From Permianibacter fluminis (GTDB taxonomy: Bacteria > Pseudomonadota > Gammaproteobacteria > Enterobacterales > Permianibacteraceae), in contig NZ_JABMEG010000001.1 of the NCBI RefSeq assembly GCF_013179735.1, forward strand, positions 434,001-498,000: a DNA stretch of 64,000 nt. Direction: 5' to 3'. This document shows positions 7,317 through 27,604 of this stretch, piece by piece. A program made the position numbers and the translations under genes. Positions within the stretch are counted from its first letter, which is position 1, and each line of letters opens with the position of its first letter. The notes under the pieces are model-generated. The model was not told the origin of the DNA, searched no databases, and was given only the letters and a program-made list of their open reading frames with translations.

Positions 7317-7380
7317 CAGACAGCTCCGCTACGCTTGAGCTGCCCAACAATGGCGGCATCAATCACAGGAAGCGCATCGC

Positions 7381-9018: not shown

Positions 9019-9079
9019 GTCTGGCCGCGTGCAATCGGCGGTTTGGCATCAGCGCGACTATTGCGGCATGGGCAATACC

Positions 9080-9532
9080 ATGACAACCGTTCACATTCGC
9101 CGCGCCGGCATTACCGACCTGAAACCACTGGCATCGTTGTTCAACGACTATCTGCTGTTTTACGGCCGGCCGGACAATCTCGCTGGTGCACAGCAATTCC
9201 TTGGCGCGCGCATAACGGTAAACGAATCGGTGATTTTTCTGGCTGAAATCGACGGCCAGATCCAAGGCTTTGTGCAGCTGTATCCCACCTGGTCGTCACT
9301 GTCGCTGGCGCAATCGTTTGTGCTGTACGATCTGTTTGTCGCGCCCGCTCATCGCCGCTCTGGCATCGCCACGCAATTGCTCAACGCCGCTACCGACTAC
9401 GCCATTGGGCAAGGCGCCAGCGGCTTGTCATTGCAAACCCATATCAGCAACCACAAAGCGCAAGCGCTGTATGAGTCGCTAGGTTGGGTACGTGATGTGG
9501 AGTTCTACAGCTACTACTGGAATTTGCCGTGA
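9080..9532 (+). CDS. GNAT family N-acetyltransferase
   Basis: About 150 aa (154 if the ATG at 9068 is used). A single GNAT domain: N-terminal IRRAGITDLKPLASLFNDYL, a central strand FLAEIDGQIQGFVQLYP, the acetyl-CoA loop VAPAHRRSGIATQLL, and C-terminal HISNHKAQALYESLGW. The layout matches small-molecule or amino-acid acetyltransferases, but the substrate cannot be inferred. It lies 61 bp after the DUF4440-like gene on the same strand. Confidence 0.88.
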   Translation: MTTVHIRRAGITDLKPLASLFNDYLLFYGRPDNLAGAQQFLGARITVNESVIFLAEIDGQIQGFVQLYPTWSSLSLAQSFVLYDLFVAPAHRRSGIATQLLNAATDYAIGQGASGLSLQTHISNHKAQALYESLGWVRDVEFYSYYWNLP

Positions 9533-9634
9533 CCCGCCATTTCGAAGTACGCAGCAGACATTGAACAGGTCCGCTGGTCTGCGTCGCGAGCTCGCCCTAC
9601 ACCGGAAACTGGGCCAATTGACATGTTACTTCGC

Positions 9635-10780: not shown

Positions 10781-10856
10781 TTAACTCCCCAAGATCGTAA
10801 GTTGAGCGGCAAAGCCCAACAACTTCACCATGAAATGGGCCAATGCAATGGGCTTG

Positions 10857-11156
10857 CTACCTCAGCGCCACGCCACAATGCTTGCATTGCTTTCTTGTCC
10901 AGCCACCGCCAGGAAGTTCCAAACAAGCGGGGCAGCGCCAATACTTCTTAAAAAAGACCACGTAAACAATGGTTCCAAGAAGCATCGGAATAAGTGCGGT
11001 CACATAATTCAATCCCAGAAATGAATTGAGATCGGTGAATCCGAGTATCAATCGTGGTGAGATCAATAGAAGCGTTATCGCAGATACAAGCTTGGCCCGC
11101 ACCATCATGGATGCGTATTCTTCCTTCACTTGAGCTGCTGACTTCTCAGTCTCCAT
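10857..11156 (-). CDS. Small membrane protein with C-terminal zinc ribbon
   Basis: 99 aa. Two hydrophobic segments (about residues 22-40 and 50-69) are followed by a cytosolic CPAC...CKHC pair (about residues 75-95) that looks like a zinc ribbon. AAGGA lies upstream of the ATG. There is no family I can name. It is upstream of, and in the same direction as, the serine hydrolase gene (76-bp spacing), with similarly AT-richer codons, so the two may have arrived together. Confidence 0.6.
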   Translation of the reverse strand: METEKSAAQVKEEYASMMVRAKLVSAITLLLISPRLILGFTDLNSFLGLNYVTALIPMLLGTIVYVVFFKKYWRCPACLELPGGGWTRKQCKHCGVALR

Positions 11157-11305
11157 ACTTGTTCCTTCTTTAGGGGCTTGCCTGATTTGTTGGCGTGGAC
11201 CTGGCCCAGCCTATCGAGACCTTTCGGGGCCAGCAAGTTGCCGCTAGTCTCGTTTGCTCCTTCGCCAAATATCAGGGTTGGTTGATAGGAAACACTGTGA
11301 GAGGG

Positions 11306-11334
11306 CTGACCGACCTGCCCGGCTGAGCTACAAT
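11306..11334 (+). promoter_or_regulatory. Sigma-70-like promoter of the SAH riboswitch/ahcY transcript
   Basis: CTGACC (-35, 11306-11311) and TACAAT (-10, 11329-11334) are separated by exactly 17 bp. A start near 11341 would place the whole riboswitch aptamer inside the leader. Confidence 0.6.
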
Positions 11335-11376
11335 TGCCGCCCCGCCAGTGACCTCAGGTCCCCGGCGGTCCTGCCT

Positions 11377-11468
11377 CCCGTTCGAGGGGCGCTGCAACGG
11401 TGGTACATCTTTCCAGATGGACTGGCCGCCAGGCTTGAACGGGGCAACTCGATGCCAACGCTGTCCGG
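11377..11468 (+). promoter_or_regulatory. S-adenosylhomocysteine (SAH) riboswitch
   Basis: The leader of ahcY carries the SAH-aptamer signature: GAGG-GCGCTGCAACGG, later CCAGGCTTGAACG, then a GGCA...TGCC hairpin followed by AACGCT. The P1 stem is explicit: CGTTCGAG (11379-11386) pairs with CTTGAACG (11434-11441), with one G-T. Known SAH riboswitches sit upstream of ahcY and turn expression on when SAH accumulates; that fits here. The region between the aptamer and the gene (11469-11526) ends in GGGAG, the ribosome site. It was not folded computationally. Confidence 0.85.
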
Positions 11469-11526
11469 TATCGGTTTCAACGGCGCCCAAAGTGAACTCA
11501 ACTTGTTAACTTTGGGAGACGTCGCC

Positions 11527-12927
11527 ATGACGAACTTTACCGATTTCCATGTCGCCGACATGAACCTGGCCGCTTTCGGCCGCAAAGAAATCCGCATCGC
11601 CGAAACCGAAATGCCCGGCCTGATGAGCGTGCGGGAAGAGTTTGCCAAGCAACAGCCGCTGAAAGGCGCGCGCATTGCCGGCTCACTGCACATGACCATC
11701 CAGACCGCGGTGCTCATTGAAGCGCTGGTCGCGCTCGGTGCCGAAGTGCGTTGGGCCTCGTGCAATATTTTCTCGACTCAGGATCACGCAGCGGCCGCCA
11801 TCGCCGCTGCCGGCATTCCGGTGTTTGCCTACAAAGGCGAAACGCTGGATGACTACTGGGAATACAGCCACAACATTTTCACTTGGAAGAACGATCAGCA
11901 CGCCAACATGATTCTGGATGACGGCGGCGATGCCACGCTGCTGTTGATGCTCGGTTCGCGTGCCGAGAAAGATCGCAGCGTGATCAGCAGCCCGACCAAC
12001 GACGAAGAAAAGGCGCTGTACGCCTCCATCGCGCGTTACCTCGACAAGGATCCGAGCTGGTATTCCAAGCGTCTGGCCTGCATCAAGGGCGTGACCGAAG
12101 AAACCACCACTGGCGTCAAGCGCCTGTACGATCTGGACCGCAAAGGCGCACTGCCGTTCCCGGCCATCAACGTCAATGACTCGGTGACCAAGTCCAAGTT
12201 CGACAACCTGTACGGTTGCCGCGAATCGCTGGTTGACGCCATCAAGCGCGCGACCGATGTGATGGTTGCCGGCAAGATCGCCGTTGTTGCCGGTTATGGC
12301 GATGTCGGCAAGGGCTCGGCGCAATCGCTGCGCGGTTTGGGCGCAACTGTCTGGATCACCGAAATCGATCCGATCTGCGCACTGCAGGCGGCGATGGAAG
12401 GCTACCGCGTCGTGACCATGGATTACGCCTGTGACAAGGCCGATATCTTCGTCACCGCGACCGGCAATGCCGATGTGATCACTCACGATCACATGGTCAA
12501 GATGCGCAACAACGCCATCGTCTGCAACATCGGTCACTTCGATTCGGAGATCCAGGTCGCGGCGATGAAGCGCTACGAATGGGAAAACATCAAACCGCAA
12601 GTCGATCACATCATTCTGCCGAGTGGCAACCGCATCATTCTGCTGGCTGAAGGCCGTTTGGTTAACCTCGGCTGCGGTACCGGCCACCCGAGTTTTGTGA
12701 TGTCGAACAGCTTCACCAATCAGGTGATGGCGCAAATCGAACTGTGGACGCGCGGCAAGGACTACCAGAACAAGGTCTATGTGTTGCCGAAGCATCTAGA
12801 CGAGAAAGTCGCCCGTCTGCACTTGAAGAAAGTTGGCGCCGAGCTGACCACGCTGACCAAAGCGCAAGCAGAATATCTGGGCCTGAAGCAGGAAGGTCCG
12901 TACAAGCCGGAGCACTATCGTTACTGA
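11527..12927 (+). CDS. ahcY: Adenosylhomocysteinase (SAH hydrolase)
   Basis: 466 aa. Splits SAH into adenosine and homocysteine using tightly bound NAD. It has the N-terminal substrate domain ([16 protein letters not shown]) and the Rossmann motif [20 protein letters not shown], and ends in the canonical KPEHYRY. The ATG at 11527 has GGGAG upstream; in-frame codons extending back to 11254 run through the riboswitch and are not coding. It recycles the product of SAM-dependent methylation, linking it to metK upstream. Confidence 0.98.
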
Positions 12928-13005: not shown

Positions 13006-13067
13006 GGCTCTGTTTTGATTGATTGAATGTCGACCTGCATCATGGCAATCGGAACCCCTCTGCCCAG

Positions 13068-13090
13068 CCCTCTCCCGCAAGGAGAGAGGG
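13068..13090. repeat. Short C/G-rich hairpin (CCCTCTC / GAGAGGG)
   Basis: A 7-bp stem near the end of the leftward FHA/propeller gene. It is similar in composition to the larger palindromic element at 50071-50190. No T run follows, so it is a repeat rather than a clear terminator. Confidence 0.4.
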
Positions 13091-13098
13091 AGTAAAGG

Positions 13099-15192
13099 CT
13101 ACTGCCCTTGCGCCAACACAATCAGCGTGCCGTCCTGATAACCAATCGCGACATGTTCGGCCGTGCTGGCCACTGTTTGCGGCAATCCTTGGTAAGGCAA
13201 TGCCTGCTGCGTCGACTGTTCCGGCGCCGCCATCGACCAGCTGGTCCAGCCCTGCGCAGTCAGCCAGATCCAAGCTGCGTCGGTTTTGCTGAATAGCCCT
13301 TCGCCGTCGGCACCGGTTTGTTGCCAGCGCTGCTCACCACTGTCGGCGGCAATGCCGATGACGGTGCCATCATCCCGGCGCAGTGCCAGTTGATCGCCAT
13401 GGCTTTGCAGCGCTTGCAGCGTCGCGGCAAACGGCTGCGACCACAGCGGCTCGCCGGCCAGTGAGAAACTCTGCAATTGCCCGGTGGCGGTTTGCACCAG
13501 CAGGCGATCGTTCACCGCCTGCACCGGCTGCACCACCACACCGGCCAGTGGTTGCCGCCACAAGGGTTTGCCATCGATGCCGACAGCAACCAGCTGCGGA
13601 CTGGAATCCACATAATAAATGCGCTCGCCATGCAGCAACGGCGGCGCGGTCATGACCACCGATGGCGGCAGCACCTGACTCCATAGCCAGGCACCGGTCG
13701 CGGCGTTTTCCGCGGCCAGCATCGATTGTCCGGCCACAATGAAATTGCCATCGGGCAACGGCAGCACACTGTGCACGGCGCTGATGCGCGGCGATGACAA
13801 TTCGGCGCTGATTTCACCATCGATGGTGAACACCACGGCGTGACCCGTACTGGTGACGGCGAGCACCCCACCGTCGTTGGCCAGCGGCACAATGTCGGCG
13901 ATCAAACGCGCTTTCAGATCGTGACTTGCCTTGCTGACGCCGGTCTGCAGATCGCGCCAGCTCAGCTTGCCATTGGCATCGGCAACAACGACCGCATTTT
14001 CCAGCAACAGCGGTTTCAACAGCCGGGCATTGCTGGCCACCTGCTGCGTCCAGAGCGCGCGACTGGCTTGTGCTGCAGACGCAGCTGTCGATGTCGGGCG
14101 CGCATTTGCCGGCGTCCGACTGAACCACCACCACGACGCGGCCAGCACGGCGATCAGCAGCAATGCGGCCGTTGCCAACAAGGCGGTCTTGTTGCCGTTG
14201 CCGGCGCTGGCGCTGCGCTGATGGCTGTTTCGGTCTTTGTTGCTCTGATTTGTGTTGCTACTCGCTGCGCCGCTGCCGCCAGTGCTGCTACCGTCGCGGC
14301 GTTTGCTGTCAGCGGTCAGCGTCTTGATCGGTTGCACCCGGCCAGTGACGCGACCAAAACCCACTTTGTCGCCGACCACCAGAACCGCACTTTCGATCCG
14401 CTGATCGTTGATGAAGCTACCGTTGCGGGAACCCGAGTCAACCAGCTGCCAGCCATCGCCCTGCCAGCGGATGATCGCGTGCTGACCGGAGACGCTGCCG
14501 TCGGCGATCACGAAATCATTGTCCGGACCGCGACCGAGTCGCAGGTCCTGCTGGGTCAGCGGCACCATCAGCATGCTGCCATCCGGCAGATTCACTTCCA
14601 GTTCGGCCAGTGGCGTATCTGCGCTGACGGTGGCCAGCGATTGTGTCGAACCAGCTTTACCCGGCGCGCGCGCATTCAACTCGGCAACTGCATCGCGAGT
14701 ATCGAATACGGTGGTGTGCTGGCGCGGCGTGCCGGAAACGGGTCCCGTGTTGGCTGCGGTATTAATTTCAGCGACAGGTGCAGGTGCAGGTGCAGGTGCA
14801 GGTGCAGGTGCAGGTGCAGCAGTCTGACTGGCGGCGATATGTGCGGCCAGTTGCGCTTCGGTGATGGCCGGCCGCAGCACGGTGGCCTGAAAGGTGGGTT
14901 CCGGTGCCTTGATCTGGAACGCCAGGGTATCGAAGCGCAACCAATCGCCATCGTGCAATTCGGTTTCGGCGTCGATGCGGCGATCATTGACGAAGCTGCC
15001 GTTGGCGCTGCCCAGATCGCGCACGTATAACTTGCCGTCACGCAAACTGAGTTCGGCATGACGGCGCGACACATGCGGCGAGCCGAGCACAATATCAACC
15101 TCGGCGGCGCGGCCAAGCACTGCCGTCGCGGTTACTTCAATCGCCGGTTGATCAGCGGCGCTACTTTCCAGGGTCCAGTTCAGGCGGCTCAC
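13099..15192 (-). CDS. Double-FHA, single-pass membrane protein with periplasmic PQQ-type beta-propeller
   Basis: 697 aa, GTG start overlapping the PP2C stop (GTGA). FHA1 about residues 20-95 (GR...SRRH...GSANGSF), a Pro-Ala linker 126-140, FHA2 about 205-285 (GRG...SGQH...GSRNGSF), a Ser/Asn-rich basic stretch 296-334, a transmembrane helix about 336-357, then about 340 residues of repeated WQQTG/W-type blades resembling PQQ/pyrrolo-quinoline-type propellers. Both FHA domains keep the Arg, Ser and His/Asn used to bind phosphothreonine. It probably joins cytosolic phosphopeptide binding to a periplasmic propeller. It is the last gene of the operon cytochrome-barrel-phosphatase-FHA. Confidence 0.85.
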   Translation of the reverse strand: MSRLNWTLESSAADQPAIEVTATAVLGRAAEVDIVLGSPHVSRRHAELSLRDGKLYVRDLGSANGSFVNDRRIDAETELHDGDWLRFDTLAFQIKAPEPTFQATVLRPAITEAQLAAHIAASQTAAPAPAPAPAPAPAPVAEINTAANTGPVSGTPRQHTTVFDTRDAVAELNARAPGKAGSTQSLATVSADTPLAELEVNLPDGSMLMVPLTQQDLRLGRGPDNDFVIADGSVSGQHAIIRWQGDGWQLVDSGSRNGSFINDQRIESAVLVVGDKVGFGRVTGRVQPIKTLTADSKRRDGSSTGGSGAASSNTNQSNKDRNSHQRSASAGNGNKTALLATAALLLIAVLAASWWWFSRTPANARPTSTAASAAQASRALWTQQVASNARLLKPLLLENAVVVADANGKLSWRDLQTGVSKASHDLKARLIADIVPLANDGGVLAVTSTGHAVVFTIDGEISAELSSPRISAVHSVLPLPDGNFIVAGQSMLAAENAATGAWLWSQVLPPSVVMTAPPLLHGERIYYVDSSPQLVAVGIDGKPLWRQPLAGVVVQPVQAVNDRLLVQTATGQLQSFSLAGEPLWSQPFAATLQALQSHGDQLALRRDDGTVIGIAADSGEQRWQQTGADGEGLFSKTDAAWIWLTAQGWTSWSMAAPEQSTQQALPYQGLPQTVASTAEHVAIGYQDGTLIVLAQGQ
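14780..14818 (-). repeat. GGTGCA hexanucleotide tandem repeat coding Pro-Ala
   Basis: About six perfect GGTGCA units on the plus strand, reading Ala-Pro on the minus strand, form the linker between FHA1 and FHA2. A perfect array like this can change length by slippage in whole codon pairs without a frameshift. Confidence 0.9.
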
Positions 15193-16097
15193 TTGTTATT
15201 CTCTTCGTCGCGAAAAAAGGCCAGCGGTTTGCTCAGCAACTTGCCCGCTTTTTCTTTGCTGCTATCCAGCCAGGATTTGTCCGAATCGGCGCCGGCCGAT
15301 GCATCAGCTGCCGCCGGTGCGGTTACGGCGCGGCGCACGGCGGTGACGTCAACCGAGCCGGTGGTGCGCAGCTGCAGTGACTGGGCATCGGTCAGCGCTG
15401 CAACCAGGATCACCGTCACGTTGTCATTGCCACCACGCTCCAGCGCGGCATTGATCAACGGTTGCAGCGCGCCGGTTGCCGGCGAGGCCCGGCGCAGAAT
15501 GGCGGCGATAGCATCGTCGCTGAGTTCGCCATTCAAGCCGTCACTGCACAGCAGCAGGCAATCGCCCGGCTGCAGATCATGATCAACCACGCCAACCTTG
15601 ACATCGGTCGTATGCGCCGAGCCCATGGATTGCAGAATGACATTGCGTTTCGGATGCACGCTGGCTTCGGCCGCGGTGATGGCGCCGCTGTCGAGCAGAT
15701 GCTGGACAAAGGAATGATCGCGGGTCAGCTGACGCAGCACATTGTTTTGCCAGAGATAAGCGCGGCTGTCGCCAACCCAGGCGATCTGGCAATGCGCGTC
15801 GTGAATCTTCAGCGCCACCACGGTCGAGCCCATGCCGGCAGCGCCTTCACCGTTGGCCGCGGCGGTGCGTACGGCGTGATGCGCCTGCTGAACCGCTTCG
15901 GGCAAGGGTTGACCCGCGCCAATTGCGGCGGTGATGGACTCGCAAACGATGCGGCTGGCCACTTCACCCGATTCGTGACCGCCCATGCCATCGGCCAGCA
16001 ACCAAAGTCCGGCCTGCGGCAACGCCAGATAGGCGTCTTCGTTGTGCGGGCGCACGCGACCGGTATGGGTCGCGGCGGCATGGTGCAAGGTGATCAT
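15189..16097 (-). CDS. PP2C-type Ser/Thr protein phosphatase
   Basis: 302 aa. Dephosphorylates Ser/Thr with two metal ions. The metal-binding motifs are intact: RVRPHNEDAYL, LLADGMGGHESGE, AWVGDSRAYL, LLLCSDGLNGELSDD and GGNDNVTVILV. After the catalytic domain (to about residue 240) comes a roughly 60-residue tail, polar and Lys/Ser-rich, ending in FFRDEENNK. It sits between the outer-membrane barrel and the FHA gene and overlaps the latter by 4 bp. The natural reading is that it resets phosphothreonines read by the neighbouring FHA domains; the matching kinase is not in this window. Confidence 0.93.
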   Translation of the reverse strand: MITLHHAAATHTGRVRPHNEDAYLALPQAGLWLLADGMGGHESGEVASRIVCESITAAIGAGQPLPEAVQQAHHAVRTAAANGEGAAGMGSTVVALKIHDAHCQIAWVGDSRAYLWQNNVLRQLTRDHSFVQHLLDSGAITAAEASVHPKRNVILQSMGSAHTTDVKVGVVDHDLQPGDCLLLCSDGLNGELSDDAIAAILRRASPATGALQPLINAALERGGNDNVTVILVAALTDAQSLQLRTTGSVDVTAVRRAVTAPAAADASAGADSDKSWLDSSKEKAGKLLSKPLAFFRDEENNK

Positions 16098-16130: not shown

Positions 16131-17690
16131 TCAGAACTTCATCCGGAGTTCGGCCCGAACCCCGGACAAATCGATGCTGTCGCCGTCTTCCTTTTCTGCC
16201 TGCGCGATCATGGCATCGGCGCGGAAAATCCAGCGCGACAGAAACGGCCGCTGATAGCGCACGCCCAGGCCATATTGGGCGCCGTCGATGCCGCTGTGTT
16301 CGTCATCGTGCCGATCAACCGCCGCGAGTTCGACCACCACTTGCTGATCCAGTGCAAACAGGCTCTCGATGCCGACCGCAATGCCGTAAGTGTTGAAGGC
16401 ACTGTCATTCAGCGTTGGGTAGCCGGTCAGGCCATCGGATTCAAACAGGATACCGACATTGCGCAGCAGGCCCCCGGTACCGGCGCCGCGCGCCAGTGAT
16501 TGCGGCCGATCCAGACCGTAGAACAGATTCAGATACGGAATGAAGGTCGATGGCGAGCTGGTGACAAACGAGTTTTCGATAATGAACAAAGTGCCGTCGG
16601 CGCTGTTGTCAAAACCGATTGGCGCGGTGTCCTGACCCTGGCTGGCGATGATCCGCAGCGAGTTTGACAGCCAGCTGCCATAACGGCGGGTGAACGATAG
16701 CGCAATGCTGTTATAGGACTGATCAAAACCGGCGATGGCGTCGGTGTCGTCTTTGGTGCGGGCGAAACCCAATTCCCAGTAACCGCGATTGGCTTCGACA
16801 AAAGCATTGAAGCCAAACACGCTGACCTTGTCCTGTTGCCGGCTGTTGAACGGAATATTGCCACCCGCCGTGGCGTCGGCCAGCAGCGGACTGTTCCAGT
16901 CGGCACTGCCGCCAAAGAAAGTCAGATCATAATTGGAGATATCGAGCGCCTTGCTGTGGCCGGCCGGCAAGGTGAACACCATGCCGGTGAACGCATCATC
17001 GAGCCAGATGCCGTTGTGGAATTGCAGCGGTACCCGACCGATGGCAAACGGCAGATCCCAACTCTGGGCGTGACCGGTCACGCCCGCGACGATGGCACCG
17101 AGATCGCCTTCAAAAAAGGCGGCGTCGATATTGTGGTCGGTTTCGACCTCCGAAACTTCATCGTCGTCATTCGGCGCCGAGAAGATCGAGCGGGTAAACC
17201 GGCCATCGTCTTCCAGCGGCGTGTAGCTGACGTGGATGCGTTCGGTCGCGGTGATTTGCCAATCCGCTTCCAGATTCAGCCGGGCCGCGACCTGACTCAC
17301 CGCGCCATCGCTGTCGATGGCCGGATCATCAATTTCATTGCGGGCGACGGCCAGTCGGGCATCACCGTACAACAGAAACTGGCTGTTGGTCGGATTGCTG
17401 GCGCCGAGATAATGGCCCGATGCCGAAATCGGACCGGTATCGTAAATCCGGCGGCCCCATTCGATCGGCGGGCGCGGATTGTGATTTTCTTTTTTGTCAC
17501 CGTAGATGCGCCGCTGCTCATCGGCATCGTAGGCATCGCTGTATTTCGGATCGGTTTTGAAATCGCCGCTGTCCGCTTCGGCCGGTTTGGCTTTGGCATC
17601 CATTGCCGGCGCGCTATCCGATGCCAGCGCAACCGGGCTCAAGCACGCAGCAACGCTCAGGGTCAGCAGGAGTGAGGAGATGGTTTTCAT
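16131..17690 (-). CDS. Outer-membrane beta-barrel protein of unknown family
   Basis: 519 aa. A clear signal peptide (MKTISSLLLTLSVAACLSPVALAS) is followed by an acidic/polar stretch, then long alternating strands rich in aromatic residues, ending in ELRMKF with the C-terminal Phe expected of BamA-inserted barrels. No Cys-x2-Cys-His is present, so it carries no c-heme. It starts 11 bp after the pentaheme gene. By position it could be the outer-membrane partner of the cytochromes, as porins are in known metal-oxidising or -reducing systems, but I see no specific similarity to MtrB/PioB. Confidence 0.7.
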   Translation of the reverse strand: MKTISSLLLTLSVAACLSPVALASDSAPAMDAKAKPAEADSGDFKTDPKYSDAYDADEQRRIYGDKKENHNPRPPIEWGRRIYDTGPISASGHYLGASNPTNSQFLLYGDARLAVARNEIDDPAIDSDGAVSQVAARLNLEADWQITATERIHVSYTPLEDDGRFTRSIFSAPNDDDEVSEVETDHNIDAAFFEGDLGAIVAGVTGHAQSWDLPFAIGRVPLQFHNGIWLDDAFTGMVFTLPAGHSKALDISNYDLTFFGGSADWNSPLLADATAGGNIPFNSRQQDKVSVFGFNAFVEANRGYWELGFARTKDDTDAIAGFDQSYNSIALSFTRRYGSWLSNSLRIIASQGQDTAPIGFDNSADGTLFIIENSFVTSSPSTFIPYLNLFYGLDRPQSLARGAGTGGLLRNVGILFESDGLTGYPTLNDSAFNTYGIAVGIESLFALDQQVVVELAAVDRHDDEHSGIDGAQYGLGVRYQRPFLSRWIFRADAMIAQAEKEDGDSIDLSGVRAELRMKF

Positions 17691-17701
17691 TGACGCTGCC
17701 C

Positions 17702-19429
17702 CTATTTCACTTCAAACGAAGCCGAGTAGGCATGCATGTTCAGCATGCCCTCATTCATCGCGCGTTCCATGTCCTGGGTCGCGCCGACAAATCGCATGAA
17801 GTAAATGGGCTCTGCCCGCGATCGCAAGCGCACGGACAGGCGATAAGTGCCGGGTTTCTTGACGAGCTCGCCCGGCACGGTAAAGGCCGCCGTGCGATTG
17901 CCGAGCGGCGGAATGCTGCGCTGTTCCATTCGCACCAGCGGCGGGTGATTCATCACCGTGACCGGCTGCGCTGCCGGCCGCAGGAACGGCAATTGATCGA
18001 TGTCCAGGTTGACCGGCAAATACATTTCCCGCTCGGTGCCTTTGACATTGGTGGTCAGGAATTTGGTTTGCAGATTGAACAGCTGATCATCGTGGGCGAT
18101 GCTGCCGTTGCGCACATCCAGTGAATGCAGATCCGCCATGTCGCCATTGGAATCGACATAACCGGATTCCCAGATTCGCACGCCAGCCGGATTGATCAGC
18201 GCCACGTTCATCCACAGCTCCGGTTGCGCACCGAGCGAACCGGATGGCACGTTGTGGCCGGGATTGATGTTGTTGACCAAATAATTGAATTTCAGATCGG
18301 AGCCGACTTGCAGCGTCGACGGGAAAAACGGTCCGCTCAGACTGAGGCCGTTGTCCATCACCGCCGCCCGTTCCTGCTGCTTGATCGCGAGCTTGCCGAG
18401 GTTTTCCTGAATGATCGCCCAGGCTTCCTCCCGGTCTGCCGGCTCCGCCCAGGCCTCTGGAAATTCGATGTCGATGAGCCCGTCTTCCACCCGCCGCTCA
18501 AACGCCTCCGAGCCCCATTGCGCGCGGAAATCGAAGCCGAGCCAGTCTTCAACCGACCAGCGCTGGGCTTTGCTGTTGTGCGGGAACACGCCCGGATGGG
18601 CAATGGAATAGCCGGGACCATAGAAAGCGTGATTGTGATGCTCGCGCTGCGGTTCGATCGGCTTGCCTTCGATCACCGCCACCGGCCCGGTCTCATAACC
18701 TTCGGCCTTACCCGGCACTTTGCCCATGTGACATTGCTGGCAGCTGATGCCTTGCGCATGCGCCGGCGATGCGCGGTATTGATCCCAGACCACTTCCAGC
18801 TTGATGCCCAGATTGACCGCCACCTGATGACAGCTGGCGCAGAATTCCGAACGCTGCAGTTGCTCCATTGGCACTGCGGCCAGGTGAATGCGTTTGCCTT
18901 TTTCTTCTTTAGCCGTGGCAACTTTGTAGAACTCTTTGTTGCTGATTACATTGGCTAGCTCGGGGCCATTTTTCGCACCATAGACCGGGGCAAAAATTTC
19001 GCCCGGATCGATGCGGCGCTCACCGTTGACCTTGCCGTATTCGGTGCTGACCCGGTGACAAGTCACGCAGGTGACACCTTCACGGCCAACGGCACTGCGC
19101 TTCCACAAATCAATGGCGCGACTTTCACCGAGCGACGAGCCAACGCTGGCATGACAGCGCACACAAAAGCCGCCGAGACTGGGCGCCAGGCCGTTGATGG
19201 TTTGTTCGAATTTGTGAAACATCGGCGAAACAGCCGAATAGGCGTGAGCGGAGCGACTCCACTCCTCGTAATGCTGTTTGTGGCAGCCGGCGCATTGCGT
19301 CGCCGACGGATAGGCACTTTCGCCATACAGTGCCTGATGCGGGTCCGGCTCACTGGCGCCGGCGATGCCGCTGTGCAGGAAAAGCAGCCCTGCGACCAAC
19401 GCAATTGTGCGTCGCAACAAAACGAACAT
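17702..19429 (-). CDS. Pentaheme c-type cytochrome, periplasmic
   Basis: 575 aa. Signal peptide to about residue 25 (LVAGLLFLHSGIAGAS). Five c-heme sites: CAGCH, CVRCH, CVTCH, CASCH and CQQCH, all within the first ~235 residues, in the spacing seen in cytochrome c554-like multiheme proteins. The C-terminal half has no heme sites and looks like a beta-rich domain (NNINPGHNVPSGSLG, with His for possible distal ligation). AAGGAG precedes the ATG. First gene of the leftward operon, so periplasmic redox is its probable entry point. Heme attachment needs the Ccm system, which is not in the window. Confidence 0.92.
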   Translation of the reverse strand: MFVLLRRTIALVAGLLFLHSGIAGASEPDPHQALYGESAYPSATQCAGCHKQHYEEWSRSAHAYSAVSPMFHKFEQTINGLAPSLGGFCVRCHASVGSSLGESRAIDLWKRSAVGREGVTCVTCHRVSTEYGKVNGERRIDPGEIFAPVYGAKNGPELANVISNKEFYKVATAKEEKGKRIHLAAVPMEQLQRSEFCASCHQVAVNLGIKLEVVWDQYRASPAHAQGISCQQCHMGKVPGKAEGYETGPVAVIEGKPIEPQREHHNHAFYGPGYSIAHPGVFPHNSKAQRWSVEDWLGFDFRAQWGSEAFERRVEDGLIDIEFPEAWAEPADREEAWAIIQENLGKLAIKQQERAAVMDNGLSLSGPFFPSTLQVGSDLKFNYLVNNINPGHNVPSGSLGAQPELWMNVALINPAGVRIWESGYVDSNGDMADLHSLDVRNGSIAHDDQLFNLQTKFLTTNVKGTEREMYLPVNLDIDQLPFLRPAAQPVTVMNHPPLVRMEQRSIPPLGNRTAAFTVPGELVKKPGTYRLSVRLRSRAEPIYFMRFVGATQDMERAMNEGMLNMHAYSASFEVK

Positions 19430-19757
19430 GCCTGTTCTCCTTATTGTCCTGCGATTGCCATCGGCACGGCGGTCGTGCCGGACAATCCTGCATGGCCGCA
19501 GCCATCACGCGCGACCCGCCTGCACTTTACCTGCAACCTGCATCGTCAATACAGCGGCTCCAGACAAAATGTAGGCAAGCCGGATAACCGCCTCTATAGT
19601 AGTCGGCAGCGCGCGCCGATGGCAGCCACCGAATTCGGCAACTGTCGGCCGCACCATAACGACCCAGACCGGCTTGGCCATCGCGCTGACTGGCACTTGT
19701 TGCATGCGCTCGTACACGCTGCTGTACGGTTCGCTGGATGGAGATGGATAGCCGCTC
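19430..19757. promoter_or_regulatory. Divergent promoter region of the cytochrome cluster
   Basis: 328 bp between the two operons. For the rightward one, TAGGCA (19572-19577) and TATAGT (19595-19600) are spaced 17 bp, giving a start near 19607 and an approximately 150-nt leader. I saw no clear leftward promoter and no obvious operator palindrome. No gene is supported here. Confidence 0.5.
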
Positions 19758-21641
19758 ATGCGTTCACTGATTGCAAGATCTGCACGTTGCTTGCTGTTGG
19801 CTTTGCCGCTCGTGCTGGCCAGCGCCGCGCAGGCCGCCAGCCCGGCCGACCTGACCGGGCCGAGTCGCTGTATCGAATGCCACGAGACACCGTTCGACGT
19901 CTGGAAAAATACCCATCACTTCAGCAGCGGCGATGCCATGCCCAAAGCCGCCAGCGCCAAAGAGATCGCCGACAAACTCGGCATCAAGCGCATCAAGGAT
20001 CCGGGCAGCCCCTGCGCGCAATGCCATTTCACCGCCGCTGAAATCGAAGGCCGGGTCAAGATTGTTGGTGGCGTCAGTTGCGAAAGCTGTCACGGTCCGG
20101 CCAAGGGCTGGATTGAAATCCACAACGATTTCGGTGGCCCGGCCATCAAGAAAGATCAGGAAAGCAAGGAGCATCGCGAGCAGCGGCTGCGCACAGTCGA
20201 AGCCGCCGGCATGATCCGGCCCGGCCGCATTTACGAATTTGCCCGCAACTGTTTTGGTTGCCATCTGGTGATCAACGAAAACCTGGTCAGCGAGGGCGGT
20301 CACGGCATCGGCAAGGATTTCGATCTGGTTGATCGGATGACCGGTGAAGTGTTGCACGGGCCCAAACCCGACGCCGCTCGCAAACGGCTGATCCGGATCG
20401 CCGGTTATGGTGCCACCGTGGAGATGAGTCTGCGCGGCATTGCCGGCGCCAAGGCGGCCGACTCGGTCTATCTGAAAACCCTGCGCGAACGTCTGGCCAA
20501 TGCCTATGCCTCGCTCAGTGAAATCAACGCCAAGGCGGGCAATCCGGCGCTGCGTGCCGCGCTCGGTGCCGCCAGCGAAAACGCTTTTGATCCGGGCAAT
20601 GCCGCGCTGGCCTCCGGCGCCGACAAGGTCCGGCAACAATTGAACAGCGCGCTGCAATCCCTAGATGGCGGCCAACTGGCCTTTGTCGATGCGCTGTCAC
20701 CGATCCGTGGCGCCAAACTGCCTGCGGTCAGCGCGGGCAAGGCGGTAGCCGCCGCCGACAAGCCGGCCAAACCGGCAGCAGCGACACCCGCATCGACGCC
20801 GGCATCGACATCGACACCGGCATCGATAACAACAGCACCAGTGACAGCAGCACCCGCAGCAGCAACGCCAGCGAAACCCAGTCCGGCGCCAGCCAGTACA
20901 CCCGCAACTGCATCAGTAACCACTCCGGCAAGCGCACAAGCAAGCACGCAAACAAGTACACAAACAACAGCCGCACCGACAACCACGTCGACCACAAAAC
21001 CGGTCAGCAGCAAACCCGCTGCCGAAACGGCGAGTAGCAGCAATAAACCGGCCGCTGCCAGCAACAGCACGGTCAGCGCTCCGGTTACTGCGCCGGTCAC
21101 AGCACCAGCGACGGCTGTCGTGACCAACGCCGGCATCACTGCGACTGCCAGCAACAACACCAACAGCACCAACGTCAACAACAACACGGCCTGGCTGCTG
21201 GTACCGACCCAGCCGGCGCTGTGCCTGACCCGGTCGCCGTGGTGGTTGGGCGAATCGCTGTTGACCCACCTGCCAACACCGGCGCCACGTTGCCTGAGCT
21301 TTGTCGCGCCGATCGCGGACTTCGCCAGTTATGTTTTTGTCGCCGACCCGGCCGGCAAAATCAGCACACTTTGGAGCACGGCCGATTGCGGTGCGGTGCG
21401 GCAAGCACCGGAACAGGAACCGTGGCCGACACTGCAATTGCCGGAACACAGTCAGCAGCTGTGGCTGGTGCAAATCAGCACCGGTCAGCGTCAGCAATTG
21501 ACGGCGAGCCTGGCCCTGACGCCAATGGTGGACTGCTCGCGGGCACAGTCGCTGACCCTCGATGCCAGTACGCTGACGCACAAGCTGGGCGAGTTACAGC
21601 AGAGCGCCGGCGCAGCGCTCCAGGTGTATGTGACGCAATGA
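19758..21641 (+). CDS. Tetraheme cytochrome c (c554-like) with long disordered linker
   Basis: 627 aa. Signal peptide ending near AQA (residues 1-26). Four heme sites: CIECH, CAQCH, CESCH and CFGCH, with extra His residues (NTHHFSS) that could be axial ligands, as in cytochrome c554. Residues about 335-475 are almost only Ala, Pro, Thr, Ser, Asn and Gln, a flexible linker. The last ~150 residues (from LLVPTQPALCLTRSPWW) form a Cys-containing folded domain of unknown kind. A long-reach periplasmic electron shuttle is plausible. First gene of the rightward operon. Confidence 0.88.
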   Translation: MRSLIARSARCLLLALPLVLASAAQAASPADLTGPSRCIECHETPFDVWKNTHHFSSGDAMPKAASAKEIADKLGIKRIKDPGSPCAQCHFTAAEIEGRVKIVGGVSCESCHGPAKGWIEIHNDFGGPAIKKDQESKEHREQRLRTVEAAGMIRPGRIYEFARNCFGCHLVINENLVSEGGHGIGKDFDLVDRMTGEVLHGPKPDAARKRLIRIAGYGATVEMSLRGIAGAKAADSVYLKTLRERLANAYASLSEINAKAGNPALRAALGAASENAFDPGNAALASGADKVRQQLNSALQSLDGGQLAFVDALSPIRGAKLPAVSAGKAVAAADKPAKPAAATPASTPASTSTPASITTAPVTAAPAAATPAKPSPAPASTPATASVTTPASAQASTQTSTQTTAAPTTTSTTKPVSSKPAAETASSSNKPAAASNSTVSAPVTAPVTAPATAVVTNAGITATASNNTNSTNVNNNTAWLLVPTQPALCLTRSPWWLGESLLTHLPTPAPRCLSFVAPIADFASYVFVADPAGKISTLWSTADCGAVRQAPEQEPWPTLQLPEHSQQLWLVQISTGQRQQLTASLALTPMVDCSRAQSLTLDASTLTHKLGELQQSAGAALQVYVTQ

Positions 21642-21663
21642 TCGGCAGCGACAGGTGAGAGCG

Positions 21664-23334
21664 ATGGCGAACTCCGTATCCATAGGCCGCGATGCCAGCA
21701 ACGATATCTGCCTGTCCGAGGCGTTTCTGTCGAGCAAGCATGCCGAGATCACGCTGGAGGATCCGACCAGCCTGAAATTTCGCCTGCGTGATCTCGGTTC
21801 GACCAATGGCACCTTTCTCAATGGCAAGCGCATCACCGAAGCCGAGTTCGAATTGTCCGACACCATCATGTTGGCCAATCGCCGGCTGGCGGTGGACGAG
21901 TTCTTGCCGAAGCTGCTCGGCAGCGTCACCCGCAGCAGCAAAACCGCCGCTGCGAGCCGCAGCAAGCCACAATCGTTTCGCCTGCTGCTGCTGATCGGTG
22001 CGGTGCTGGCCGGCCTTGCCAGTGCCGGCTTGCTGTTGCTGTCCGGCCAGCAGATCAACGGTCAGGCGATCAGTGGCCAGAATCTGATCCTCGCCAGTCT
22101 CGGGATTGCGGTGCTGAGCACCGGCATCATGGTGGTCGGCGACAATCTGCGCCGCACGTTTGTCCGCGCCCGCGCCGAACGCCAGTATCTGGATTTGCGC
22201 CTGCGCGCGCTGGCCGACGAAATCGAACAGAAAACCCAGCGCAAGACCAAACAGACGGAGCACAACAAAGGTTGGGAAGGTTTTCGTAAATTCCAGTTGG
22301 CGCGGCGCACCGACGAAGCCAACGGCATCACCTCGTTTTATCTGGTGCCGCACGATGGCAAGGCGCTGGCGCCTTACGCGCCCGGCCAGTATCTGACGCT
22401 GCGGCTGCAGATTCCCGGTCAACCGAAACCGGTGGTGCGCTGTTACTCGCTGTCCGATTGTTTTCGCGATGGCCATTACCGCATTTCGGTCAAGCGCGCC
22501 CGTGGCAGCAAACCGGGCGAGCCGGATGGTCTGGTCTCCGGTTATCTGCACGAGCAGGCGCAAGTCGGTGAGCTGCTCGACGTCAAGGCGCCGAGCGGTT
22601 CGTTCCATCTCGATGAAAGTTCGTCGCGGCCGGTCGTGCTGTTGGCGGGTGGTGTTGGCATCACGCCGATGCTGGCGATGTTCAACTCCGTGCTGGCCAG
22701 CGGCCGGCGCCGGGAAGTGAAACTGTTTTATGCCGCTCGCGCCGCTGATGAATTTGTCCGGATCAGTGAACTGGCCGAAGCCGATTTGCACAGCGACCAC
22801 ATCAGCGTGCATTTCTTCTGCAGCAGTCCGGATGAGCAGGGTCGGTTGCCGAGGCAATCGGTGCAGTTTGAACGACTCAGTGTCGAGCAGCTGAAAAAGA
22901 TTCTGCCGTCGAACAACTACGAATTTTATTTGTGCGGGCCCGGGCCATTCATGTCGGCGCTGGTCGGCGATTTGCGCAGTTGGGGCGTGCCCGACGGCGA
23001 TATTCATTTCGAGGCCTTCGGTCCGTCCACGGTTGCCACAAAACCGGCAGCCGGCGCCGCCGAACCGGTCGCCACCGCAGCAGTCACCGTGACCTTTGCC
23101 CGCTCCAAGAAAACCATGCGCTGGAGCGCCAGCGACGGCAGCCTGCTGGAAGCTTGTGAACGCAATGGCATCGCGCTCGATTCCGGTTGCCGCGCCGGCA
23201 ACTGCGGCACCTGTCAGGTGGCGCTGGTGTCCGGCAAAGTCAGTTACAGCAGCCAGCATGACGTCACGCCGGAATCCGGCTCCTGTCTGGCCTGCATTGC
23301 CACGCCTGACAGCGATATCACGGTGGATGCCTGA
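21664..23334 (+). CDS. FHA - two-TM - ferredoxin reductase - [2Fe-2S] fusion protein
   Basis: 556 aa from the ATG at 21664 (AGGTGAGA upstream; a GTG at 21655 is possible). FHA domain about residues 4-75 with the phosphothreonine-binding set (GRD, SSKHAE, GSTNGTF). Two transmembrane helices about 107-128 and 141-161 form a hairpin, so both ends are cytosolic. Then a FAD/NAD(P)-binding reductase (RCYSLSD, VSGYLHE, LLAGGVGITPM, FYLCGPGPFM) and a plant-type [2Fe-2S] ferredoxin with C-x4-C-x2-C (CRAGNCGTC) plus a distal Cys. It should take electrons from NAD(P)H at the inner membrane. The FHA fusion implies control by phosphorylation. The stop overlaps the next start (TGATG). Confidence 0.93.
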   Translation: MANSVSIGRDASNDICLSEAFLSSKHAEITLEDPTSLKFRLRDLGSTNGTFLNGKRITEAEFELSDTIMLANRRLAVDEFLPKLLGSVTRSSKTAAASRSKPQSFRLLLLIGAVLAGLASAGLLLLSGQQINGQAISGQNLILASLGIAVLSTGIMVVGDNLRRTFVRARAERQYLDLRLRALADEIEQKTQRKTKQTEHNKGWEGFRKFQLARRTDEANGITSFYLVPHDGKALAPYAPGQYLTLRLQIPGQPKPVVRCYSLSDCFRDGHYRISVKRARGSKPGEPDGLVSGYLHEQAQVGELLDVKAPSGSFHLDESSSRPVVLLAGGVGITPMLAMFNSVLASGRRREVKLFYAARAADEFVRISELAEADLHSDHISVHFFCSSPDEQGRLPRQSVQFERLSVEQLKKILPSNNYEFYLCGPGPFMSALVGDLRSWGVPDGDIHFEAFGPSTVATKPAAGAAEPVATAAVTVTFARSKKTMRWSASDGSLLEACERNGIALDSGCRAGNCGTCQVALVSGKVSYSSQHDVTPESGSCLACIATPDSDITVDA

Positions 23335-25016
23335 TGAGTACACCGCCGTCGGCGCTGCAGGCCAAGCGCGCCTCCATCTGGGATGTGCAATTTGATCCGA
23401 CGATGACGCCCGCGGTGGTGCAGTCGCTGTTGGCAAAACCGCCGTTTGCCGACATGGATCGCAGCGCCTTTCCCGACAACAGTTCGCTGGACGATATTCT
23501 GCTGCACGAATGTGCGCTGCGGACCATCGAACCAGATCAAGTCGTGATCCGCCAAGGTGACTACGGCACCAGCGCCTTTTTTCTGCTGACCGGTCGACTG
23601 GCGGTCTGGGTCAACACCGGCCAGACTCGCGCCCGCAAAAGTGACGAACGCGAACTGTCGTGGTTGACCGCATTGAAGCAAAGTTTTCACAAGCCGGTCG
23701 TGCCGGAAGTGCGCGATGTCGGTAGTCGCAAAGCAGGCACCAGCACCCGCCGCGAAGATGCCGCGCTGTTCATTCAGGATCTGCCCGGCGTCGTGCAGCC
23801 GGATGGCCGCGCCGAGCTGCAGCCCGGTGCGCTGTTTGGCGAAGCCTCGGCGGTGACCCGGACACCGCGCTCGGCCAATATCGTCGCGATGGAACGCAGT
23901 CAGGTGTTGGAGATCACCTGGCAGGGTTTGCGGGCACTGATGCGATTCAGCCCGGCTTTGAAGCAGCACGTCGACAACCGTTTCCGCAAAGACAATCTGT
24001 ATGTGTATCTGCGCTCGCTGCGGGCACTGACCGGCGCTGCCGACACTGTCATCAAACGACTGGCCGATGCCGCGCTGTTCGAACGCCATGGCCGGTTCGA
24101 CTGGCATGTCGATTTCAAACGCGAGACGGCTGCTACCGCCGGCGCCGCCGCCGAACCGGTGATCGTCGAGCAAGGCAGCTATCCGAATGGCATTTATGTC
24201 GTGCGCAGCGGCTTTGTCCGGATCAGCCGGCAATTCAATCACGGTGAACAGACGCTGGCCTACCTTGGCAAAGGCGAATGCTTTGGTTTGCAGGAAGCTT
24301 ATGCGGCCTGGTCATCGAAGACCGGTCAGGCGTTTCGCTTTTCGCTGCGTGCCATTGGCTATGCCGACATCATTCTGCTGCCTACTGCTGCGGTCGAAAA
24401 ATTGCTGTTCGAAACCGGCTTTCAGCCGCCGCCGGCAACAGCGACTGAAACCAAACTGAACGCCGAGCCGCTGGCACTGGCGCCACGGGAAACCGGCTTG
24501 CTTGAATTTCTGGTCGAGAACCGGTTCATCAACGGCACCAAGACCATGCTGGTCAACACCGACCGCTGCACCGGCTGCGACGAATGCATCCGGGCCTGTG
24601 CCGATGCCCACGACGGCAACAGTCGCTTTGTCAGGGAAGGACCGAAATACGAAAACCTGTTGGTCGCCAACGCCTGCATGCATTGCCACGATCCGGTCTG
24701 CATGATCGGCTGCCCGACCGGCGCCATTCAGCGCGAGGCGGATCAGGGTTACGTTCACATTCAGGATGATATCTGCATCGGCTGCGCGACCTGCTCGAAC
24801 AGCTGTCCCTACAACAATATCCGGATGACGACGATCCGCGATCGCAGCGGCGCGATTTATCTGGATGAATCCCGGGCCCCGATTCTGAAAGCCACCAAAT
24901 GCGATTTCTGCATGAACCAGCTGGTCTCACCGGCCTGTCAGAATGCCTGCCCCCATGACGCCCTGGTGCGCATGGATGTCAGCGATAGCGAGCGCTTGAA
25001 AAAATGGCGCAGCTAA
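23334..25016 (+). CDS. Tandem cyclic-nucleotide-binding domain / four-[4Fe-4S] polyferredoxin
   Basis: 560 aa, no signal peptide. Two CNB-like domains (about residues 45-215, with an inserted basic loop, and about 240-380), with LQPGALFGEASAVTRTPRSANIVA in the place of the phosphate-binding cassette of the first. From about residue 405 comes a DmsB/NrfC-like ferredoxin with four cluster motifs: CTGCDECIRAC, CMHCHDPVCMIGC, CIGCATCSNSC and CDFC...CQNAC. Its likely job is to relay electrons between the reductase and a membrane partner. The CNB part may sense cAMP/cGMP or act structurally; the second domain's cassette is degenerate. It overlaps the next gene by 13 bp. Confidence 0.92.
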   Translation: MSTPPSALQAKRASIWDVQFDPTMTPAVVQSLLAKPPFADMDRSAFPDNSSLDDILLHECALRTIEPDQVVIRQGDYGTSAFFLLTGRLAVWVNTGQTRARKSDERELSWLTALKQSFHKPVVPEVRDVGSRKAGTSTRREDAALFIQDLPGVVQPDGRAELQPGALFGEASAVTRTPRSANIVAMERSQVLEITWQGLRALMRFSPALKQHVDNRFRKDNLYVYLRSLRALTGAADTVIKRLADAALFERHGRFDWHVDFKRETAATAGAAAEPVIVEQGSYPNGIYVVRSGFVRISRQFNHGEQTLAYLGKGECFGLQEAYAAWSSKTGQAFRFSLRAIGYADIILLPTAAVEKLLFETGFQPPPATATETKLNAEPLALAPRETGLLEFLVENRFINGTKTMLVNTDRCTGCDECIRACADAHDGNSRFVREGPKYENLLVANACMHCHDPVCMIGCPTGAIQREADQGYVHIQDDICIGCATCSNSCPYNNIRMTTIRDRSGAIYLDESRAPILKATKCDFCMNQLVSPACQNACPHDALVRMDVSDSERLKKWRS

Positions 25017-25825
25017 GTCCGCGTTGGCGCGCCAGAGCGATTAAGTCCGGCCTGACCGCAGCGGCGTTTGCGCTGCTGGTGCTGCTGTGGAAACTGGCGC
25101 CGTCGTTGTCGGCGCAGCGCAATCTGACCGGCTGGGTACTGGCCGGCGCTCTCGTGCTATTGCTCAGCCTGCGGCTGAAACGGCTGCTGCGTCTGCTGCC
25201 ACTGGGCAGCAATTATCACTGGACCCAGTTGCATGTGTATGTCGGCATTTTTGCTCTGGGCGCCTTGCTGTTGCACGGCGAGTTCAGTAGCCGATCCGGG
25301 CCGTTCTGGTGGCTGCTGTTCCTGCTGGTCTGGGCCAGTGTGCTGTCTGGCGTTTTGGTGATCCTCGGCGCCCGCTGGTTGCCGCGCACCACCCGCAATT
25401 TCGACAGCAATGTGTTGTACGAAAAAATCCCCCAGTATCGGGCACTGTGTGCGGACCGCATGGCAGCCTTGTATCAACAAATTGCCGACACCGCCAAATC
25501 GGATCTGGTGTTCCGGCAAACGGCCGGCTGGCTGTTTGCCAAGGTCAACGCCCGCCAGCACACGCTGCTGCATATTGTCGGCAATCGCTTGCCGTTTCAG
25601 GCGGCTGAACAGCGGGTCGAATCGATTCGCCGCTATCTGAATCAAACCGAACAGGATCTGCTCGACGAATTGCTGAGCGTTTATTTGCAGAAAGTCGAAC
25701 TGGATGCTCAGGAAAGCGTGCAATGGCTGTATCGCTTGTTGCTGGTCAGTCACCGCGTACTCACGGTCAGTGCCTTGCTGCCGATCGTGCTGCATGTGCT
25801 GGTGATCTATGCCTATCTGGATTGA
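25004..25825 (+). CDS. Four-to-five-helix membrane protein, probable di-heme cytochrome b
   Basis: 273 aa, overlapping the ferredoxin gene by 13 bp. Hydrophobic segments: about residues 17-32, 42-56, 77-92, 103-122 and 250-270. Two helices carry the same pattern H-x13-H: His77/His91 and His250/His264, which is how b-hemes are ligated in FRD/YedZ-like ferric-reductase membrane domains; His72 is additional. A roughly 120-residue cytosolic insertion lies between them (about 130-245). The natural role is moving electrons across the membrane. No family name is assigned. Confidence 0.75.
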   Translation: MAQLSPRWRARAIKSGLTAAAFALLVLLWKLAPSLSAQRNLTGWVLAGALVLLLSLRLKRLLRLLPLGSNYHWTQLHVYVGIFALGALLLHGEFSSRSGPFWWLLFLLVWASVLSGVLVILGARWLPRTTRNFDSNVLYEKIPQYRALCADRMAALYQQIADTAKSDLVFRQTAGWLFAKVNARQHTLLHIVGNRLPFQAAEQRVESIRRYLNQTEQDLLDELLSVYLQKVELDAQESVQWLYRLLLVSHRVLTVSALLPIVLHVLVIYAYLD

Positions 25826-25828
25826 TAC

Positions 25829-27604
25829 ATGACAGCACCGACTGAAAAGGATCGCGGCGCATTCTGGCGACCTTCGTCGCAGTATCTGTGCGGCCATTTG
25901 CCCTGCGGCAAACCCTGTCAGCAAGGGCCGGACGCGCAAGGCCAGTGTCAGACCAGCACCGAATGCATTCCGGCCAAACGTGGCGCGCGCTGGCATTGCA
26001 CCCGCGCCGCCAGCGCCGGCGGCCCGTGCAGCGACGGCCCGACTCCGCAGGGCAGTTGCGCGCACGGTTTGCCACGCTGCTCGCCGATCCGCAGCCCGCG
26101 TCGGCGCTATCGCCAGATGATCGCCGGTTTGTTCGTGTTGGCGCTCGGCGTGACGCTGCTGATCTTTGCTCTGGCACCGGCGAAAGGTTTGAGTCCGGGC
26201 CCGTTGTCAGCCAAGCACGCTGCTGGCACGGCCGGTTGTGAAAGCTGTCATCAACTGGACGGCAGCGCCAGCGTAATGGCGGTGGTTGCCGGCGCGTTCT
26301 CGCACCACCCCAACGAACAGCAATGCTTCGACTGTCATACCGACAAAGCGTCACCGCATTCGGCGCATGACGGGGCCTTTACCGCGGCGGCAACGGAAAA
26401 TCCATCGGCAACAAAAAACCTGATGTGCCGCGAATGCCACCAGGAACATGACGCACCGTTGTTGCCCGGCCGCAGCAAGCAAATGGCGGTTTGCAATGAT
26501 TGCCACCAGCAGCGCCAGCATGCTTTCCCGGATCACAGCCGTTTTGCCGATTATCCGTATCAGCGGGTCAATCAATTGCGCTTTGATCATCGCAGCCATC
26601 TGGAAAAACATTTCCCGGCCAAGCAGGTCGCCGGTCAGCCGAAGGTGAGTTGCGTCAGTTGTCACAGCGCAACCGATGACGGCCGCTTCATGCAGGTCAA
26701 CCGCTTTGCCGATGCCTGCGCCAGCTGTCACCAGAAGAGCCTGACGGCGGAACCGCTGTTGTTGCTGGCGCTGCCCACGCTGGACCTGCCGGCCTTGCAG
26801 CGCGCCGGTGTCGACACCAGCGGCTGGCCGGAAGAAGGCGATGATGTGGTGTTCGCCAATGCCAGCTTGCTCAGCATTGCCAACCTGAGCGATGGCAAGA
26901 TTCCGGCGCTGCAATTGCTGAATCAGGATGTCAGTGATTTGTCGGCGGCAAGCCCGGCGCAGATCAAACTGGTGGCGCAAGTCAGCAGCGCGATTCGCCG
27001 CAGCCTGCATGCCTTGAATGCGGAAGCCCTGCCTGCGGCGGCTGTGACGGACAATCCAGTTATAGACAAGTCAGATCTCGACAAAAACAAACTGGCGCAA
27101 TTGCGCAGTGCCTTGGCCGAGCTGCCGCAAAAAAATCGCCACTTGAGTGACACGCAACTGGCGGTAACCCCGGAGAGTCACGGCGCCGCGGCACTGACCC
27201 TGCTGTTGCAGCCACGGCCGGATTTGCCAGCCGCCAGTTTTCCAAAACCCTGCAGCAGTTGCCATGCGCCAATGGCAGCGCCCGGTCAGCAAGCGGGCTG
27301 GCAATCACCGCTGCGCTCGGTCAAAGCCGGCAGCACGGTGATCTTTGGCCATCGTCAGCATTTGTTGTCGATGGGTGACAGCGGCTGCCAGAGTTGCCAC
27401 CGCTACAATGAGAGTGATGGCGATAACGAGCCCGGCAGCGACAAGAGCCAGAAAACGCCGACAGCCATGCACTCCTTTGCCACCATTCCGGTCAGCACCT
27501 GCGCCAGCTGTCACGACGGCAAAACCGACGCCGGCAATTGCAGCAGCTGTCACCAATACCACATCGGCACAGCTGCTCCGATCGCAGCGGAGGAAACGCC
27601 TTAA
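25829..27604 (+). CDS. Membrane-anchored decaheme cytochrome c with Cys-rich cytosolic N-terminus
   Basis: 591 aa. Residues 1-95 are cytosolic by the positive-inside rule (SPRRRYRQ precedes the helix) and carry nine Cys (21, 26, 30, 40, 46, 57, 67, 77, 84) with a duplicated motif C-x2-GP-x3-G-x-C (CQQGPDAQGQC and CSDGPTPQGSC). One transmembrane helix about 97-116. The periplasmic remainder has ten CxxCH sites: CESCH, CFDCH, CRECH, CNDCH, CVSCH, CASCH, CSSCH, CQSCH, CASCH and CSSCH, with repeated cytochrome-c3/c7-like spacing. The N-terminal cysteines may bind metal or an Fe-S cluster, which would let one chain bridge the membrane. It is the last gene of the operon. Confidence 0.9.
   Translation: MTAPTEKDRGAFWRPSSQYLCGHLPCGKPCQQGPDAQGQCQTSTECIPAKRGARWHCTRAASAGGPCSDGPTPQGSCAHGLPRCSPIRSPRRRYRQMIAGLFVLALGVTLLIFALAPAKGLSPGPLSAKHAAGTAGCESCHQLDGSASVMAVVAGAFSHHPNEQQCFDCHTDKASPHSAHDGAFTAAATENPSATKNLMCRECHQEHDAPLLPGRSKQMAVCNDCHQQRQHAFPDHSRFADYPYQRVNQLRFDHRSHLEKHFPAKQVAGQPKVSCVSCHSATDDGRFMQVNRFADACASCHQKSLTAEPLLLLALPTLDLPALQRAGVDTSGWPEEGDDVVFANASLLSIANLSDGKIPALQLLNQDVSDLSAASPAQIKLVAQVSSAIRRSLHALNAEALPAAAVTDNPVIDKSDLDKNKLAQLRSALAELPQKNRHLSDTQLAVTPESHGAAALTLLLQPRPDLPAASFPKPCSSCHAPMAAPGQQAGWQSPLRSVKAGSTVIFGHRQHLLSMGDSGCQSCHRYNESDGDNEPGSDKSQKTPTAMHSFATIPVSTCASCHDGKTDAGNCSSCHQYHIGTAAPIAAEETP

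Follow-up and report, generated by a model that had tools for sequence, protein, structure and literature searches.

Positions 25004–25825 (plus strand) of the window, i.e. the 64,000-nt stretch of the Permianibacter fluminis genome analysed here (GCF_013179735.1; NZ_JABMEG010000001.1, positions 434,001–498,000 of the forward strand), encode a predicted di-heme cytochrome b of 273 amino acids with five transmembrane (TM) helices. Judged from its sequence, this protein is the inner membrane protein (IMP) of a PCC4-type gene cluster, and it probably carries two stacked b-hemes and provides the trans-inner-membrane link of the PCC4 conduit. Electron routes into and out of cells are mostly known from Shewanella and Geobacter, and to our knowledge post-translational control of such trans-envelope current is hardly known. 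Clusters of this type are thought to connect cell metabolism to the outside, and the added value of the present locus lies in its signalling parts. PCC4 was described as comprising a porin, three periplasmic cytochromes (with 4, 5, and 10 hemes), a conserved IMP, and other redox proteins (PMC5566968). The family was published in 2017 and is experimentally uncharacterised; the presence of signalling domains on its electron-entry proteins and the unusual cytochrome b member seem to be new.

The coordinates of the cytochrome b ORF are exact, and the two H-x13-H pairs noticed in the first-pass annotation, His77/His91 (codons at 25232–25234 and 25274–25276) and His250/His264 (25751–25753 and 25793–25795), were found as described, the members of each pair lying 14 residues apart in hydrophobic helices. 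Two such pairs occurred in 0.8% of shuffled versions of the sequence. Conservation provides far stronger evidence: in an alignment of 90 sequences (the window protein included; relatives 18–30% identical), all four His and the exact 14-residue spacing are kept in 90/90, so that the question raised in that annotation of whether the four are invariant among homologues can be answered in the affirmative. They constitute four of the seven invariant columns (G43, W73, H77, H91, G116, H250, and H264), and other positions in the two helices are occupied by His in two sequences at most. The protein is clearly homologous to the other 89. His190 was also considered as a heme ligand and was rejected; although invariant in the first 15 sequences, it is missing from many members of the larger alignment. 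The invariant His residues open a direct mutational test.

Hydropathy, the helices predicted by AlphaFold2 (AF2), and loop charges are in agreement with five TM helices. Loops 1–16 and 58–73 and a large insertion between TM4 and TM5 are net positive throughout the family, and loops 31–41 and 92–103 are neutral to negative; according to the positive-inside rule, the insertion, loop 2, and the N-terminus would face the cytosol and the C-terminus would lie in the periplasm. This places His77 and His250 near the predicted cytosolic surface, and His91 together with His264 near the periplasmic one. Because a step of 14 residues corresponds to approximately four helical turns, each H-x13-H pair should reside on one helix face. 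The heme nearer the cytosol would be coordinated by His77 and His250, and the heme nearer the periplasm by His91 and His264. The AF2 model built on the 90-sequence alignment (mean pLDDT, 90.1; pTM, 0.81) contains helices at residues 70–91, 139–163, 168–182, 187–191, 196–209, and 214–271, with TM5 forming part of the single long helix 214–271, which runs from the insertion into the membrane. Taken together with the operon structure described below, the invariance, spacing, and topology strongly support the di-heme cytochrome b predicted in the first-pass annotation. The helical insertion (residues 124–244; 25373–25735, plus strand) is about 120 amino acids long and apparently cytosolic, as had been proposed, and is a plausible candidate docking site for a ferredoxin-type partner, given its location, the 13-nt overlap of the cytochrome b start with the gene for a protein carrying four [4Fe-4S] clusters, and the adjacency of these two genes in nearly all loci examined. 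The adjoining gene also supports the proposal that the partner is an iron-sulfur protein.

The first-pass annotation regarded the gene as lacking an obvious family name. This holds for Pfam and NCBIfam, in which no family scored above cut-off, but not for the literature, where the protein corresponds to the PCC4 IMP (PMC5566968). Neither the ferric reductase-like TM domain (PF01794) nor prokaryotic cytochrome b561 (PF01292) was matched by the window protein at the Pfam gathering score, and weak matches of family members to b-heme families, which favour the heme reading, were distributed among DUF4405 (39/90), Ni_hydr_CYTB (25/90), and Ferric_reduct (10/90). The ferric reductase/NOX TM domain resembles the system in having HX13H on two helices and a chain that includes an FAD/NAD(P)H reductase module, but the reductase is a separate protein in the window cluster and the Pfam matches to PF01794 are weak and restricted to 10 relatives. 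Cytochrome b561/Ni-hydrogenase cytochrome b (PF01292) and DUF4405 are likewise b-heme-type membrane proteins with several helices, whereas the window protein contains a large insertion on the cytosolic side ahead of its last helix. When profiles were compared with the relatives' b561 and ferric-reductase proteins, no similarity was found, the small size of these sets being perhaps limiting. PDB sequence searches also yielded nothing, and two AF2 models submitted to Foldseek and VIA-align retrieved no significant match; the top rows were helical bundles of soluble sensors, which are not believable as relatives. The cytochrome b561 structure 4o7g could be aligned to the model with an rmsd of 2.8 over 125 residues (Z, 7.1), a match too weak to count as proof.

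For the PCC4 IMP, He et al. (2017) described five TM helices, with SGXXG on TM4 and one WX3HX13H motif each on TM3 and TM5, and interpreted it as a protein with two b-hemes that is possibly quinone-reactive (PMC5566968). The window protein shares the five TM helices, both HX13H motifs, the SG on TM4, and WX3H on TM3 (W73), but reads LX3H on TM5 and SGVLV on TM4. The former is due to L246 in place of a Trp found in 88/90 sequences, the only other exception being that of locus L023, and the latter to V119, which replaces the final Gly of SGXXG; this Gly is kept in 89/90, with the window protein as the sole exception. Like PCC4, the window contains a porin, cytochromes c with 4, 5, and 10 hemes, the IMP, and Fe-S and redox genes, and its Fe-S gene (pfam13247 type) lies upstream of the IMP gene, as in Subgroup II. 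A redox gene is linked to the tetraheme gene in both cases (separated by 13 nt in the window), but it follows the tetraheme gene here and precedes it in PCC4. The window cluster further differs in that its reductase carries an FHA domain and its porin operon includes genes for the PP2C and double-FHA proteins, and in keeping the Fe-S protein although the porin and pentaheme genes are on the opposite strand. According to He et al., the PCC3 IMP contains the same two WX3HX13H motifs and SGXXG but shows no significant overall sequence similarity, and PCC3, unlike the present cluster, includes multiheme cytochromes that are extracellular and others that are large and periplasmic (PMC5566968). Cyclic-nucleotide and FHA domains are never mentioned in the main text of that paper (PMC5566968). 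The papers searched contained no experiment on a PCC4, whether on its heme, its spectrum, or its activity, and the only later use of the name among them was one comparison in a 2026 metagenome paper.

The PCC4 gene set of the window spans 16131–27604 and is arranged in two divergent operons. The plus-strand operon consists of genes for a tetraheme cytochrome c, the reductase, the Fe-S protein, cytochrome b, and a decaheme cytochrome c, which are separated by 13, −1, −13, and 3 nt, respectively. The tetraheme protein (19758–21641) belongs to the c554 family (PF13435, 6e-13) and has CxxCH at 38, 86, 108, and 165; a long Ala/Thr/Pro/Ser-rich linker and a C-terminal domain without assignment are encoded at 20700–21641, and most of its relatives are about 200–300 amino acids shorter. 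The reductase (21655–23334) combines a canonical FHA domain (21676–21867; Pfam FHA, 2e-17), two TM helices, an FAD/NAD(P)H reductase (FAD_binding_6 and NAD_binding_1), and a [2Fe-2S] domain (Fer2), with the motifs RCYS, GGVGIT, CGP, and CX4CX2C all present. The cytosolic Fe-S protein (23334–25016) contains a cyclic-nucleotide-binding domain (cNMP_binding, 1e-28) and four predicted [4Fe-4S] clusters (Fer4_7; Fer4_11, PF13247, 3.8e-8). Among 13 sequences of this protein, all 16 Cys are invariant (13/13), as are G169, E170, R176, and R179 in the region of the phosphate-binding cassette. The decaheme protein (25829–27604; 10 CxxCH) has one TM anchor, preceded by an N-terminal Cys-rich domain (25862–26110) in which eight Cys are conserved in about 80 of 85 relatives. 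This domain, which showed no Pfam match, comprises two similar repeats (C-x2-GP-x3-G-x-C...C-x-P), is cytosolic by topology, and could bind metal or Fe-S.

The minus-strand operon consists of genes for a pentaheme cytochrome c (17702–19429), a porin-like protein (16131–17690), a PP2C-type Ser/Thr phosphatase (15189–16097; PF13672, 1e-11), and a protein with two FHA domains, a TM helix, and a beta-propeller (13099–15192; PF00498, 5e-40 in two stretches; PQQ_2, 7e-16), separated by 11, 33, and −4 nt, respectively. The pentaheme protein contains five CxxCH motifs, and its orthologues in other clusters are 40–62% identical. The porin-like protein (519 amino acids) has a signal peptide and a C-terminal Phe; it matched no Pfam family, relatives of ≤41% identity are encoded beside the pentaheme gene, and we infer that it is an outer-membrane beta-barrel.

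Cytochrome b homologues were found in other families by genome searches (25–31% identity), and 80 named loci were reached via the neighbouring Fe-S protein, the gene of which adjoins the cytochrome b gene in nearly all of them; a first scan of genome contigs with a single cytochrome b sequence gave no match. PCC4-type cores are distributed among Planctomycetota, Verrucomicrobiota, Nitrospinota, SAR324, and several Proteobacteria. Among the 33 loci with full flanks, cytochrome b and the decaheme gene were present in all (33/33 each), the reductase in 32, and the tetraheme gene in 30. The porin and pentaheme genes were found together in 17, and neither lay within 10 kb at the remaining 16; the connection to the outside may therefore not be general.

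The residues, their invariance, the linkage of the genes, and their domain content are observed, whereas heme occupancy, the contacts between partners, and the order of transfer are inferred in the electron path that we consider most likely. Electrons would pass from NAD(P)H via FAD to the [2Fe-2S] cluster of the membrane-tethered reductase, from there to the four-cluster Fe-S protein, and then to the cytosolic and on to the periplasmic heme b of cytochrome b. The membrane-anchored decaheme cytochrome would accept them and deliver them to the tetraheme cytochrome, from which they would leave through the pentaheme cytochrome in the outer-membrane porin. We lean towards outward flow or reversible redox balancing in Pe. 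fluminis, since the NAD(P)H site of the reductase is intact, RuBisCO was not found in this genome, and the PCC4 cluster of the window contains no quinone-specific gene. The absence of RuBisCO also weakens the case for lithoautotrophic use in this species.

In the rival model of He et al., the cytochrome b exchanges electrons with the quinone pool: an external donor such as Fe(II) or Mn(II) feeds electrons via the porin and cytochromes c to a quinone-reactive cytochrome b, which reduces quinone, and NAD(P)+ is reduced with electrons diverted by the reductase and the Fe-S protein. This is the published hypothesis for PCC4 (PMC5566968), Fe(II) oxidisers were the organisms in which PCC4 was first detected, and the same cluster occurs in a Mariprofundus genome. 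On the other hand, no quinone-site motif was identified in the window cytochrome b, the constant partners are cytosolic flavin and Fe-S proteins that a plain quinone reductase would not need, NAD+ reduction with Fe(II) electrons would need energy input, and this genome lacks RuBisCO; we give the model something under one chance in three here. A shorter chain, which would run from the inner-membrane core to an acceptor in the periplasm and use the porin/pentaheme pair only as an optional extra, would explain the 16 loci without this pair nearby, but the pair always co-occurs, directly adjoins the core in a divergent operon in the window, and may be encoded elsewhere in other genomes, since the count covers 10-kb flanks; we regard this as unlikely.

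The cyclic-nucleotide and FHA domains, together with the PP2C and double-FHA proteins, most likely gate electron entry. FHA domains were also found in the reductases of four other loci (L043, L044, L046, and L066), three of which (L043, L046, and L066) have a further one at the N-terminal end of the Fe-S protein, and reductases with FHA recur in other phyla; the domain is absent from most loci, and the PP2C neighbour was not found in the others. Its position in the reductase is before the TM helices in the window and L044, between the TM and reductase parts in L043 and L046, and inside the NAD domain in L066, which points to several gains. A single origin of the fusions was rejected: the ML tree of the reductases requires four changes and no bootstrap tree was compatible with one, although the well-supported branches alone force only one FHA change. 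It is conceivable, though we consider it rather doubtful as a whole, that PCC4 operates as a regulated trans-envelope valve, in which cNMP on the Fe-S protein and phospho-Thr read by FHA switch an outward current driven by NAD(P)H through cytochrome b, FHA having joined the reductase several times independently. The phospho-Thr state would then be set by the co-encoded PP2C phosphatase and genomic kinases; four Ser/Thr kinase matches were found in the genome. These domains make the regulation of PCC4 current testable on purified proteins. The linkage of FHA, cNMP, and PP2C domains to cytochrome b could also be read as a transmembrane sensor, in which they detect the heme redox state for signalling rather than bulk current, but electron flow is what the 19 c-hemes, the five predicted Fe-S clusters, and the complete NAD(P)H reductase are suited to, and most loci lack FHA, which makes this reading highly improbable.

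The cytochrome b is absent from another genome of the same genus (complete, on one contig), and a genome of the same family lacks it as well. The same-genus genome does carry the S-adenosylhomocysteine hydrolase gene that forms one flank, but its best match to the other flank is found at a distance of 1.4 Mb. These absences and this flank layout suggest that the cluster was acquired by transfer. At 13055–13098, a segment of about 41 bp that surrounds the inverted repeat CCCTCTCC...GGAGAGAGGG occurs in many copies (88–93% identical) in the two closest genomes and looks like a dispersed palindromic repeat. A PntB gene is located at 48602–49987 (minus strand), far from the cluster; in L102 (Omnitrophota; 8553–9935), a gene for the NAD(P) transhydrogenase beta subunit directly precedes the PCC4 core, hinting at a link of PCC4 to NADPH. 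The L023 cluster (4560–12411) contains no Fe-S protein, has 2Fe-2S at the reductase N-terminus, and resembles PCC4 Subgroup I; like the window, it has the pentaheme/porin pair on the opposite strand and has lost the TM5 Trp. The reductase genes of L084 (8659–11686; a Kiritimatiellae MAG) and L110 (632–3660; a Gammaproteobacteria MAG) are nearly identical (tree distance <0.004), which would reflect either a binning error or a very recent transfer.
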